Of a stretch of 11,873 bases of DNA, positions 1,801 to 8,953 are shown one piece after another. Position numbers and translations under genes: made by a program. The notes under the pieces are model-generated. The model saw nothing but the letters and a program-made list of their open reading frames with translations, was not told the DNA's origin and ran no database searches. Where the stretch lies: contig PLBZ01000035.1 of assembly GCA_003134675.1 (NCBI GenBank), positions 1,031 to 12,903 on the forward strand, given 5' to 3'. Within the stretch, counting starts at the first letter, position 1. Every line of letters begins with the position of its first letter. Origin of the DNA: Solirubrobacterales bacterium. Its GTDB lineage: Bacteria; Actinomycetota; Thermoleophilia; Solirubrobacterales; Solirubrobacteraceae.

Positions 1801-4173
<2,373 letters not shown>

Positions 4174-4189
4174 GACTTTGATGTGAGGA

Positions 4190-4285
4190 GATCGCGCCGC
4201 ATGCGGCGCGATCAGCAGGGCCGCATGCGGCCCTGCTCGGACCCGCACATGTGCGGGTCCGCCGGTAGGCACATGTGCCTACCGG
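4190..4285. repeat. Array of four abutting perfect 24-bp palindromes
   Basis: Units lie at 4190-4213, 4214-4237, 4238-4261 and 4262-4285, with no base between them. Left arms are GATCGCGCCGCA, AGCAGGGCCGCA, CGGACCCGCACA and CCGGTAGGCACA; each right arm is the exact reverse complement. Centres are 24 bp apart. All units share the core CRCATGYG; units 1 and 2 share GCCGCATGCGGC, and units 3 and 4 share GCACATGTGC. As RNA, each gives a 10-bp stem with a CAUG loop. Outer arm bases differ between units yet always pair, so structure rather than sequence appears conserved. The array begins 16 nt after the pcrA stop and ends 25 nt before the folD ATG. No T-run follows, so it is not a classical intrinsic terminator. 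A terminator or insulator, RNA-stability element, or protein-bound palindrome array are all possible. Confidence 0.97.
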
Positions 4286-4296
4286 AACATCATCAA

Positions 4297-4302
4297 TACG
4301 AT
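4297..4302 (+). promoter_or_regulatory. Possible -10 box for leaderless folD mRNA
   Basis: TACGAT lies 8 nt before the folD ATG, in the TANNNT-N(6-8)-ATG layout common for leaderless transcripts in actinobacteria. No Shine-Dalgarno is visible before folD, and a -35 box would fall inside palindrome 4, where none is evident. If real, folD has its own promoter just downstream of the palindrome array. Confidence 0.25.
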
Positions 4303-4310
4303 CCAGCACG

Positions 4311-5189
4311 ATGGCAGCGACGATCATCGACGGCAAGCAGATCGCAGCGCACGTGCGCGCGCAGGTGGCACGCGACGTCGCCGGCCTGGTTGCAGCAGGC
4401 GGACGCGCGCCCGGCCTCGCCACCGTGCTCGTCGGCGAGGACCCCGCGTCGGCCATCTACGTGGGCGGCAAGCAACGCGCCTGCCGCGAGGTGGGAATGG
4501 AGCCGTTTGACCGACGCCTTCCCGCCGAGGCATCCTTCGAGGAGGTCGCCGAGGAGCTCGAGCGCCTGAACGCCGATCGCGCCGTGAGCGGAGTGCTGCT
4601 GCAGCTGCCCGTGCCCGCGCACCTCGACGGCCCCACGCTCACGGCCATGATCAGCCCAGACAAGGATGTCGACGGCCTGACGCCGGTCAACGCCGGACTG
4701 CTCTCACTCGGTCGTCCAGGACTGCGGCCCTGCACACCCTCGGGGGTCATGGAGATGCTCGCCCAAACGGAGGTGGTGCTCGAGGGCGCGGAGGCGGTCG
4801 TCGTGGGACGCTCCAACCTGTTCGGAAAGCCGATGGCCCAGCTGCTGCTCGCGGAGAACGCGACGGTGACCGTCTGCCACTCGCGTACACGCGATTTGCG
4901 CGCGGTGTGCGCCCGCGCGGACGTGCTGATCGCGGCGGTCGGTCGCCCCCGGCTGCTCACACGCGACTTCGTCAAGCCCGGCGCGGTGGTGATCGACGTC
5001 GGCATGAACCGCCTCAGCCCCGAGGAGGCCGGCAACAAGAGCGGCCTCGTCGGCGACGTCGACTTCGCCGCCGCGTCAGAGCTGGCCTCCGCGATCACGC
5101 CCGTGCCCGGCGGCGTCGGTCCGATGACGATCGCATTCCTGCTGCGAAACACGCTGGACGCTGCCCGTTCTCAGGCGGGGGTACAGTGA
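4311..5189 (+). CDS. folD: Bifunctional methylenetetrahydrofolate dehydrogenase / methenyltetrahydrofolate cyclohydrolase
   Basis: FolD interconverts 5,10-methylene-, 5,10-methenyl- and 10-formyl-tetrahydrofolate with NADP+ in the cytoplasm, supplying one-carbon units for purines and formyl-Met-tRNA. At 292 residues it is full length. Active-site residues fall at the E. coli numbers: Tyr50 and Lys54 in AIYVGGKQ, Gln98 in LLQLPVP and Asp121 in SPDKDVDGL. The Rossmann domain carries VVVGRSNLFGKPMAQ (163-177), and the C-terminus has VIDVGMNR and ITPVPGGVGPMTIAFLLRNT. The ATG at 4311 gives MAATIIDGKQIA, the usual FolD start; a longer reading from GTG 4275 would begin inside palindrome 4 and adds nothing family-like. 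No Shine-Dalgarno is evident. The stop overlaps the next gene by 4 nt (GTGA). Confidence 0.96.
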   Translation: MAATIIDGKQIAAHVRAQVARDVAGLVAAGGRAPGLATVLVGEDPASAIYVGGKQRACREVGMEPFDRRLPAEASFEEVAEELERLNADRAVSGVLLQLPVPAHLDGPTLTAMISPDKDVDGLTPVNAGLLSLGRPGLRPCTPSGVMEMLAQTEVVLEGAEAVVVGRSNLFGKPMAQLLLAENATVTVCHSRTRDLRAVCARADVLIAAVGRPRLLTRDFVKPGAVVIDVGMNRLSPEEAGNKSGLVGDVDFAAASELASAITPVPGGVGPMTIAFLLRNTLDAARSQAGVQ

Positions 5190-5666: not shown

Positions 5667-7247
5667 CTACCTGCGCTTCTTCGATTTCCTCTTCTTGGGC
5701 TTCGGCTTGTGCAGCGTGGCGACGGCGACCGCCGGAGCGGCCTGCCGAACACCTGCCGCACTCATCGCCAGAACGGCGAACGTGATGTGCTCGCCGTAGG
5801 GAAGACGGGATACGGATGCCCGGTAGGCGCCGGCGGCCAGATTGACGACCGACATCGGCACGGTCTTCGTCTTGTGACAGACGGGCTTTTTGCCCCTCTT
5901 GCGCTTTTTCTTGACTGGGCACTTCACCGTAACCGTGTAGGCGGTCGACGGCTGGATGCTCAGCGCCACGGCGTTGGGGTCAGAGGCGGCGATCTGCAGG
6001 GTGCATGCCTGTAGGTGGCACCTCAGCGCGGTGATCGAAGCGAGGGGCGGCGCGGTGTCGACCGCGATCGGCGGCGTCGTCCCGGTGCGGGCCGTGCTCA
6101 CCCCGCCGGGATTGCTGGCCTGCACGATGCATACGATTGGTGCGCCAACGAGACTGCTCGGTGCGGCGAAGATGTTGCTTGGGCCGCTCTGCAGCACCTG
6201 CGCGGAGGCGTTTTCCACCTGGAAGGTATAGGTGAACGACGGCGATTCGCTCCAGGCGCCCGGTTCGCAGGTCAGCGGGCTGAAGTCCACAGGGGCAACC
6301 CCGACGGATTTGAGAACCGGCGGCGAGGTCGGCCGCGCGGCGACGGGCGGCGATTGGCTGCCTTCGATGAACGCGCGAATCTCGGGCGCGGCCAGGTTCG
6401 AGAAGCCGTCGATCCCGCCGACCGGGCATTCCTTTCCCCCGAAGTCGACGATGCCGACCTGGACCGACGGGCTGCCCTCGACCAGCGGGCCGCCGCTGTC
6501 TCCTTGACAAGTCGACGAGCTCGTCGACTCTGCACACAGCAGCACGGCTGAGTTTTCCCCCACCGCCCCCCGGCAGGCGTCGCTGCTGATCGCGGTGAGC
6601 ATCGTCGAGTAGAGCTTGCCGTTGGGTTCGTGTCCCGGGCCTTCCGCGCCTTCCTCCTTGCCGTATCCGCTGACGGTGAGCGCGGAGCCCGGCGCAGGTG
6701 TTGCGCCGGTAGGAACCAGCGGTATCGCCTCGGCATTGGCCGCCGCCGACAAGGTGAGCGGCGAGGAGAGCGTCATCACCGCCACGTCGTCCTTGATGTT
6801 CGGCAGGACGGTGTAGTAGGGGTGGGTGCGAATACTGGCGACGCCCACCAACTGAGAAGTGGTCGAGGGTCCACTCACATTCGAGTCTCCCGCCACGACC
6901 ACGAAATCGCCGGGTTCTCGCTGCGTTGTGGTGCCCTCGACATCGGCGCAGTGGGCAGCCGTGAGGACGTGCATGGAGTCGAGAATCGACCCGCCACAAG
7001 CCACGACGATGGTGTTGCCATTTTCTTTGAATTCGGCCTGGATGTAGACCTGCCAGGGGAATTGGGAGATCGAGGATTCCTGCCCATTGATGATGTAGGG
7101 AACGAGCGGCGATGAACCGACGTCGGGAGACGCGGCGAGCGCCAGCTGAGAGGAAGCGCTCAGGAGCAGCGCCAGCGCGCCGAGGCACGCAACGAGCATG
7201 CTCGCCATGCGTCGAGGGACCCGACTCGTGCGCAGAGCGGCGCTCAT
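5667..7247 (-). CDS. Secreted chymotrypsin-fold (S1) serine protease with Ig-like domain and basic tail
   Basis: 526 residues. The N-terminus has an Arg-rich start, a hydrophobic core and LALA-A (cleavage near 38/39), a typical Sec signal peptide. The catalytic domain starts near IINGQ (52) and has His99 in TAAHC, Asp154 in KDDVAV and Ser251 in CQGDSGGPL. Cys84/100, 225/238 and 247/274 match the three common chymotrypsin disulfides. The S1-pocket base residue (position 189) is Ser245, not the Asp of trypsin, which suggests chymotrypsin- or elastase-like specificity. Residues about 308-390 form an Ig-like domain (LTCEPGAWS ... ASNPGG), followed by a DTAPP-type module (397-443), a Lys/Arg patch (446-454) and a Lys/Arg-rich end (about 512-526). 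The ATG lies 2 nt after the cysE stop, with GGGGG as ribosome site, so it is co-transcribed with cysE. Substrate unknown. Confidence 0.93.
   Translation of the reverse strand: MSAALRTSRVPRRMASMLVACLGALALLLSASSQLALAASPDVGSSPLVPYIINGQESSISQFPWQVYIQAEFKENGNTIVVACGGSILDSMHVLTAAHCADVEGTTTQREPGDFVVVAGDSNVSGPSTTSQLVGVASIRTHPYYTVLPNIKDDVAVMTLSSPLTLSAAANAEAIPLVPTGATPAPGSALTVSGYGKEEGAEGPGHEPNGKLYSTMLTAISSDACRGAVGENSAVLLCAESTSSSTCQGDSGGPLVEGSPSVQVGIVDFGGKECPVGGIDGFSNLAAPEIRAFIEGSQSPPVAARPTSPPVLKSVGVAPVDFSPLTCEPGAWSESPSFTYTFQVENASAQVLQSGPSNIFAAPSSLVGAPIVCIVQASNPGGVSTARTGTTPPIAVDTAPPLASITALRCHLQACTLQIAASDPNAVALSIQPSTAYTVTVKCPVKKKRKRGKKPVCHKTKTVPMSVVNLAAGAYRASVSRLPYGEHITFAVLAMSAAGVRQAAPAVAVATLHKPKPKKRKSKKRR
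6510..6529. repeat. Perfect 20-bp palindrome inside the protease gene
   Basis: The half AGTCGACGAG is followed at once by its exact reverse complement. It covers the codons for Ser241-Thr246, a Ser/Thr run just before the catalytic CQGDSGG, including S1-pocket Ser245. It may reflect Ser/Thr codon composition alone, since TCG, ACG, AGC and TCG-ACT combine easily into a palindrome. Confidence 0.9.
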
Positions 7248-8014: not shown

Positions 8015-8953
8015 CTACGGCACGAAAAAAGCCTGGGAGACATAGCGCTCGCCTGAGTCGGGCATGATCACGACGATCCGCTTGCCACGCGACTCGGGGC
8101 GAGCGGCCACCTGGAGCGCTGCCCATAGGGCCGCTCCGCAGGAGATACCGGCCAGCAGGCCGACGCGCCGGGCGCAGGCCCAGGCGGTGTGGATCGCGTC
8201 GTCGTCGGATACGGGGATCACCTCGTCGAGCAGCTCGCGGTTGAGCACCGCCGGCACGAAGCCGGCGCCGATGCCCTGGATGCGATGCGGACCGGGCTGA
8301 GCGCCCGAGAGGATCGCCGAGCCCTGCGGCTCGACGGCGACGATTCGCAGCTGGGGGTTGTGCTCGCGCAGGCATTCGCCTACGCCTGTGATCGTGCCAC
8401 CGGTGCCCACGCCGGCCACGAGGATGTCGACCCGACCGTCGAGCGCGCGGTGGATCTCCGGCCCGGTGGTGCGCCGATGAACTGCCGGGTTGGCGGGGTT
8501 TGAGAACTGGTCGGGCAGGAACACGTCGTCGTTGCGCGCCATCGCCTGCGCCGCCTCCACGGCCTCGCCCATTCCCCCCATCGACTCGGTGATGTCGACC
8601 CGCGCGCCGTACAGGCGCAGCAGGCTCTCACGCTCGCGGCTCATCCCCTGCGGGAGGGTCAGCACCAGGTCATAGCCCTTGGCGGCACACACGAACGCGA
8701 GCGCGATCCCGGTGTTGCCGGAGGTGGCCTCCACGATCGTCGTGCGGCCGGGCTCGATCCGGCCTTCCGCCTCGGCCGCCTCGATCATCGCCACGCCGAT
8801 CCGGTCCTTGACGCTGCCTCCCGGGTTGAGCGCCTCGAGCTTGGCGAACAGCTCCACGCCGTCCACCGCCGCGACGTCCTCGAGCATCCGCTGGAGCCCA
8901 ACCAGCGGGGTGCTTCCGACGAGCTCCGCAATGTTGATCGGGATTTGGGCCAT
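8015..8953 (-). CDS. cysK: Cysteine synthase A (O-acetylserine sulfhydrylase)
   Basis: PLP enzyme making cysteine from O-acetylserine and sulfide. 312 residues from the ATG at 8953, giving MAQIPINIAELVGSTPL, a normal CysK N-terminus; a GTG at 8962 would add three residues. PLP lysine is Lys49 in NPGGSVKDR. TSGNTG (77-82) is the substrate-binding loop, GVGTGGT (181-187) holds the PLP phosphate, and Ser300 in MPDSGERY contacts the pyridine nitrogen. SNPANPAVH is also family-typical. It lies 49 nt downstream of the Rrf2 gene and 21 nt upstream of cysE. Cystathionine beta-synthase-like enzymes are related, but the cysE neighbour supports CysK. Confidence 0.95.
   Translation of the reverse strand: MAQIPINIAELVGSTPLVGLQRMLEDVAAVDGVELFAKLEALNPGGSVKDRIGVAMIEAAEAEGRIEPGRTTIVEATSGNTGIALAFVCAAKGYDLVLTLPQGMSRERESLLRLYGARVDITESMGGMGEAVEAAQAMARNDDVFLPDQFSNPANPAVHRRTTGPEIHRALDGRVDILVAGVGTGGTITGVGECLREHNPQLRIVAVEPQGSAILSGAQPGPHRIQGIGAGFVPAVLNRELLDEVIPVSDDDAIHTAWACARRVGLLAGISCGAALWAALQVAARPESRGKRIVVIMPDSGERYVSQAFFVP

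Follow-up and report, generated by a model that had tools for sequence, protein, structure and literature searches.

The window analysed here, that is, the whole stretch of 11,873 nucleotides from a Solirubrobacterales genome (G000; 1.43 Mb, 67% complete), carries between the genes pcrA and folD a row of short palindromes that differ from one another in their arms and are each fully symmetric. The locus raises the question of what such a row is, whether it belongs to a wider family, and what keeps its arms complementary.

The array between pcrA and folD

From the pcrA stop (position 4173) to the folD ATG (4311) there are 137 bp, and the initial annotation had described 96 of them (4190-4285) as filled by four abutting perfect palindromes of 24 bp; this was borne out, every one of the four 24-mers being identical to its own reverse complement (Table 1). 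No other perfect palindrome in the window reaches 22 bp. The next longest measure 20 and 14 bp; the 20-bp one, AGTCGACGAGCTCGTCGACT, lies at 6510-6529 within a gene called at 5667-7208.

Table 1. Features of the pcrA-folD region, in window coordinates
Feature	Position	Strand	Sequence	Remarks
PcrA/UvrD-type DNA helicase gene	1801..4173	+		TIGR01073, under the curated cut-off; upstream of the array, outside the element
Left flank	4186..4189	+	AGGA	weak family feature, found repeatedly
Palindromic unit 1	4190..4213	.	GATCGCGCCGCA/TGCGGCGCGATC	perfect 24-bp palindrome
Palindromic unit 2	4214..4237	.	AGCAGGGCCGCA/TGCGGCCCTGCT	perfect palindrome; GCAGGGC arm type
Palindromic unit 3	4238..4261	.	CGGACCCGCACA/TGTGCGGGTCCG	perfect palindrome
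Palindromic unit 4	4262..4285	.	CCGGTAGGCACA/TGTGCCTACCGG	perfect palindrome; CCGG-type, adjoins AAC flank
Right flank	4286..4295	+	AACATCATCA	variant of the AACAGC-like flank of the family; AACATC in the window copy
TACGAT box before folD	4297..4302	+	TACGAT	probable -10 element, a short way 3' of the array
folD	4311..5189	+		NF010785, over the cut-off; downstream of the array, outside the element

Four such palindromes in register had also been judged to exceed chance, and chance is indeed ruled out: five Markov-resampled copies of a 257,589-base sample of G000 yielded a single palindrome with an arm of at least 12 (its arm being 13). In the sampled bases themselves, palindromes with an arm of exactly 12 number five, all CATG-centred and all within arrays of the family described below. 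Few long perfect palindromes occur outside the arrays in the sampled part of the genome, so there is no evident sign of a process that makes palindromes in general. A lone perfect palindrome of another kind (CAACCGCGCCGAGCGTACGCTCGGCGCGGTTG; 32 bp, arm of 16, centre CGTACG) lies near position 8879 of G000 contig 11 (L156).

Units 1-2 and 3-4 had been proposed to form sub-pairs that arose by duplication. The shared cores are present (12 bp in units 1 and 2; 10 bp, GCACATGTGC, in units 3 and 4), whereas a duplication of pairs is not needed, since similar unit types occur, by eye, in similar order at other loci of the genome, namely GCAGGGC-armed, CGG..CCG and CCGG-ended units, the last next to AAC. 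Indeed, the GCAGGGC arm type of unit 2 is seen again in five further arrays of the same genome (C9, C23, C27, C28 and C35), and CCGG-type units similar to unit 4 adjoin AAC at further loci; copying of whole arrays fits this recurring order better than a 1-2/3-4 duplication. As for the flanks, the AGGA motif helped to decide the orientation of the arrays, so that its frequency in the family is inflated. A TACGAT or TAGCAT box was seen by eye shortly 5' of the folD start in many genomes of the genus (folD loci L121-L142); it is a probable -10 element near the start codon, with a presumed promoter role.

A dispersed family of palindromic arrays

When the genome and its relatives were scanned for abutting palindromes with CRCATGYG centres, the window copy proved not to stand alone. 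In G000, two such centres at a 24-bp period occur in 18 places, against none for a reversed-pattern control search, and at least 10 loci among these places were found to hold arrays, with up to six units each, whose palindromes are perfect or nearly so. Among 151 genomes of the order, 11 have matches. They represent three genera of a single family, and one of them, G081, is without a palindromic array; the reversed pattern matched in three other genomes of the 151. A relaxed pattern matched in all 24 genomes of the genus and its reversed form in 13 of them, so low relaxed-pattern counts mean little.

Scanning public genomes for three centres in register returned 83 stretches. Fifty-six of them form the Solirubrobacterales group considered below: 50 are titled Solirubrobacterales or Solirubrobacteraceae, and to these were joined, after their arrays had been seen, three stretches titled Actinobacteria or Actinomycetes (L043, L067 and L107) together with L113-L115. 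L067 is identical to one locus in genus genome G155 and has its coordinates. A spread to other taxa was rejected, the remaining 27 of the 83 stretches being not palindromic. In IMG/VR the triple pattern is matched by five stretches, none of which holds a palindromic array; plasmids and phages searched with 137 bp around the window array gave no match.

Copies with informative titles among the matches listed all come from metagenome-assembled genomes (MAGs), which could point to an assembly artefact; however, at least 19 differently named MAGs among these matches carry arrays, so the array is not peculiar to this assembly. Together with the single codon phase of the copies inside genes, the orthologous sites in several species and the near absence of such palindromes from resampled sequence, this leaves artefact or chance a negligible probability.

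Repeats of other kinds also occur in this material. Next to one array lies a dispersed repeat of another sort, about 100 bp long (L073:6550-6670); it has many matches in G060, G154, G000, G157 and further genomes, most of them with an identity of 75-91%. A 24-bp palindrome that is not CATG-centred, GATTCGTTCCGCGCGGAACGAATC or a one-base variant of it, is found in one MAG, as three single copies in L069 and one in L095.

Arrays between genes and inside genes

The position of 82 arrays was analysed with genes called by a simple home-made codon-usage scorer, trained on eight window genes; the 82 include orthologous copies (six in ABC-F, four in LeuRS). Seventy arrays lie outside open reading frames. 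Where both neighbours were called, convergent gaps are over-represented (17/63 arrays versus 24/191 control gaps) and divergent gaps under-represented (10/63 versus 54/191), while in tandem gaps the upstream stop is nearer than the next start in 30 of 36 cases, at a median of 19.5 nt versus 59.5 nt. In the flanks the exact motif AACAGC recurs: 13 of 164 array ends have it at a distance of at most 8 nt, where 0.12 would be expected. Orthologous ABC-F copies account for four of the 13.

The other 12 arrays lie within open reading frames, all 12 in one codon phase. Their hosts are leucyl-tRNA synthetase (LeuRS, leuS), an ABC-F ATPase, an OadA/PycB-like protein and the C-terminus of TrpF; the encoded eight-residue units mostly have a centre made of a small residue, His and Ala or Val, and in LeuRS and ABC-F the arrays sit in variable linkers with conserved protein blocks on either side. 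Perfection is somewhat lower among the units of coding arrays than among those elsewhere (27/37 versus 191/235 perfect; 4/370 versus 6/2,350 inner mismatches).

The preference for convergent gaps and for the vicinity of stop codons, as well as the strong RNA fold of the window copy (-86.2 kcal/mol, z -7.9), would suit an RNA element, that is, rows of hairpins that end transcription, in both directions in convergent gaps, or shield mRNA 3' ends, with pairing selected on the RNA. We consider this unlikely as an account of the family. Termination is not the general function of the arrays, since 12 of the 82 lie inside open reading frames, flanked in LeuRS and ABC-F by conserved protein, and for those copies it is excluded as the cause; moreover, G.T and T.G make up just 7 of 38 mismatches, no Rfam family matched the window, 19 of 21 genomes are without an array in the pcrA-folD gap, and purifying selection on any insertion would leave the same position after stop codons. 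The conserved outer stem seen in the fold of the window copy was also rejected as a general feature: with flanks permuted over 81 arrays, the observed value of -11.23 kcal/mol compares with a mean of -11.13, and 119 of 300 permutations were as good. Thus the row of functional RNA hairpins put forward in the initial annotation did not hold as a general story, given the in-frame copies in leuS and other genes, the mismatch types and the lack of a general outer stem. Nor do the arrays look like intrinsic terminators, a T run being absent after the window array on either strand and 12 arrays being inside genes; transcription termination may still be a local role of intergenic copies.

Patchy distribution and probable mobility

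Comparison of the pcrA-folD gap across relatives gave a patchy picture. Among the 21 genomes of the genus with a folD match, an array is present in G000 (four units) and in G147 (two other units). These two genomes are far apart on a tree built from LeuRS, FolD and ABC-F, so that their pcrA-folD arrays likely represent separate gains. Similarly, the array on G060 contig 9 is missing at all eight orthologous loci examined. At both sites the gaps of the empty relatives are too diverged to show an insertion border or a target duplication, and for the L073 array none of seven loci gave a two-sided orthologous match; no transposition event, clean empty site or target duplication was found at the sites compared. 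As to terminal inverted repeats of the MITE type, 81 arrays showed no general flank-to-flank pairing.

Other copies seem to have a longer history. The LeuRS arrays of G161, G155 and G147 fall in one clade with a support of 98, and G150 has an additional LeuRS array; the ABC-F arrays, present in six genomes, are grouped together with a support of only 48. G154, inside this group, has no array, and the ABC-F search gave no match in G158. Absence at LeuRS and ABC-F loci lacking anchors was judged by eye. From these distributions some copies seem to be old and to have mostly kept their symmetry.

Arrays within one genome are more alike than arrays of different genomes (2.81 versus 3.39, 0/5000 permutations; 50 arrays in seven genomes, labelled by hand), an effect that is driven by two genomes, is opposite in one and may partly reflect base composition. 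Taken as a whole, the distribution indicates a small dispersed element, probably mobile and non-autonomous, and the arrays look like a new form of small DNA element that spreads in soil Solirubrobacterales.

Concerted change of the palindrome arms

Of each unit the search pattern constrains just the 8 bp at the centre, so that eight outer pairs are free. In the 171 units of the 56 stretches of Solirubrobacterales or unspecified Actinobacteria a mean of 7.78 of these eight pairs is formed, with all eight in 140 units, against 2.1 of eight for the 94 units in the 27 stretches of other taxa. The 171 units comprise 132 distinct sequences; mutual information between paired columns amounts to 0.84-1.70 bits, compared with 0-0.24 for partners shifted by one. 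Mismatches number 38 in 1,368 pairs, of which 27 are in the two outermost pairs, and pairs 3-8 have 11 in 1,026. These outer-pair counts, mismatch counts and mutual information values are ungated, while for the 82-array analysis, including the flank and coding-versus-other comparisons, units were accepted only with at least 10 of 12 pairs; in that gated set 218 of 272 units are perfect and 212 sequences are distinct, the centre alone being constant.

Orthologous sites allow the changes themselves to be followed. At three of them, with flanks 68-89% identical where alignable, hand-aligned units display 12 compensated versus 3 one-sided differences in 108 pairs; the sites are LeuRS in G155 and G161, the region upstream of a gene recognised by eye, which we take to be lepA, in two Chersky MAGs, and G060 contig 1 versus G143 contig 45. 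For the ABC-F orthologues 83 pairwise cells are compensated and 18 one-sided, the cells being not independent; orthologous units were typed and aligned by hand, and the ABC-F sets omit the first G153 unit and two extra G000 units. Arm changes among relatives therefore mostly keep the pairing, as the initial annotation had anticipated, although decayed units exist, and its view that either selection or a generating mechanism is required is supported. Decayed palindrome remnants adjoin intact units in L241, L242 and L257 (ABC-F) and in L212 (LeuRS), which suggests that they are older units after loss of symmetry.

Wobble pairs are not enriched among the mismatches, as expected of pairing at the DNA level, and we infer that arm pairing acts on DNA rather than on RNA, with something handling both arms as one unit. 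This could be a protein, such as a transposase, a recombinase or a nucleoid protein, whose recognition target is a single-stranded hairpin or a cruciform tipped with CATG; selection would then keep the pairing of a mobile or structural element and leave the arms free as long as they are paired. The fixed centre next to variable arms, the register fixed at 24 bp and the recurring AACAGC-like flank agree with such a protein, which is the main rival to self-correction of the arms, even if we hold it to be rather doubtful: two-step compensation predicts more mismatched intermediates than were counted at pairs 3-8, the symmetry of old coding copies is left unexplained, and a candidate was not found. 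Y1 transposases are the best-known mobilisers of bacterial palindromes. Their profile PF01797 (Y1_Tnp) matched in 5/14 control genomes and, within the genus, in G151, and was not found in the other 23 of 24 genomes, including G000 (67% complete) and G060; mobilisation by a RAYT is accordingly unsupported.

A proposed self-correcting small element

Starting from what was observed here, namely the family, the covariation, the in-frame copies and the patchy presence, we favour, at roughly even odds, an explanation in which the array is a copy of a small, non-autonomous mobile element, whose arms would be kept complementary by hairpin-templated copying; this supposes mobility, a mobilising enzyme and templated correction. 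The element is about 50-150 bp long and dispersed in Solirubrobacterales. It consists of two to six CATG-centred palindromes of 24 bp that abut, and in many cases an AACAGC-like flank adjoins it on one side. Every unit can fold into a hairpin of 10 bp whose loop is CATG, and the arms, largely free in sequence, stay symmetric. Copies lie between genes, usually near a stop codon, or in frame in tolerant protein linkers, 24 nt being eight codons. A mutation in one arm would be transferred to the other, or reverted, as replication or repair proceeds through the extruded hairpin, so that the two arms would evolve in concert. Template switching that turns imperfect palindromes into perfect ones is reported for E. 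coli (PMC7202029), and repeat conversion by template switching has been proposed for the perfect coding palindromes of hairworm mitochondria (PMC6649704).

Decayed units and the somewhat lower perfection of coding units count against self-correction, and proximity to stop codons would equally suit a terminator role. DNA-level self-correction is nevertheless the likeliest cause of the arm symmetry. More tentatively, and with a probability that we place below even, the arrays may represent a class of selfish DNA defined by symmetry and not by sequence, consisting of tandem perfect palindromes in which nearly any arm is allowed; since mutations would be copied through the hairpin, such an element would not degenerate one arm after the other and, if this is true, would be able to persist in frame inside essential genes and across species.

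With its dozens of copies and its comparisons between orthologous sites, the family offers a natural record of how palindrome arms evolve in concert in bacterial chromosomes, and makes the choice between selection and template-switch correction of palindromes directly testable. It also adds Solirubrobacterales to the bacteria whose proteins have been entered by palindromic elements.

Comparison with known palindromic elements

In the open-access literature searched, no description of such arrays was recognised. A CRISPR array was rejected, because the units are not identical and follow one another directly, with no spacer between them. Mitochondrial hairpin elements (sponge RHE, fungal double-hairpin elements and palindromic repeats) are, as presented in PMC2800124 and PMC7218506, likewise dispersed, optional and sometimes tandem; in sponge RHE, however, stems are reported to be conserved and loops to vary (PMC2800124), and the arrays reverse this, with a fixed loop and varying stems. 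The coding palindromes of Nematomorpha mitochondria share with the arrays perfect inverted repeats in protein genes and concerted arms, but they are described as up to 284 bp long, as located in animal mitochondria and as formed by host coding sequence (PMC6649704), whereas the arrays consist of short tandem units, dispersed and mostly intergenic.

Closer parallels are found in bacteria. Rickettsia palindromic elements (RPE) are small palindromes located between genes and in frame in unrelated genes (PMC10969869), and in-frame copies in protein genes occur here too, in 12 of 82 arrays and in one codon phase. Conversely, RPE are described as about 150 bp long, as forming sequence families with a conserved encoded peptide (PMC10969869) and as losing repeat identity over time (PMC6649704); the arrays have 24-bp tandem units with variable complementary arms, 212 distinct sequences among 272 units instead of a single family, and a peptide of which only the small residue-His-Ala/Val centre recurs. 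REPs and REPINs are also short dispersed bacterial palindromes, proposed to be non-autonomous mobile DNA, and are characterised in PMC3116915 as imperfect, conserved in sequence, mostly extragenic and accompanied by RAYT transposases. In contrast, 218 of the 272 array units are perfect, the arms vary, some copies are genic, and the Y1 transposase profile PF01797 occurs in one of the 24 genus genomes. The arrays thus work most like RPE and REPINs, but lack the sequence conservation and the transposase by which those elements are recognised.
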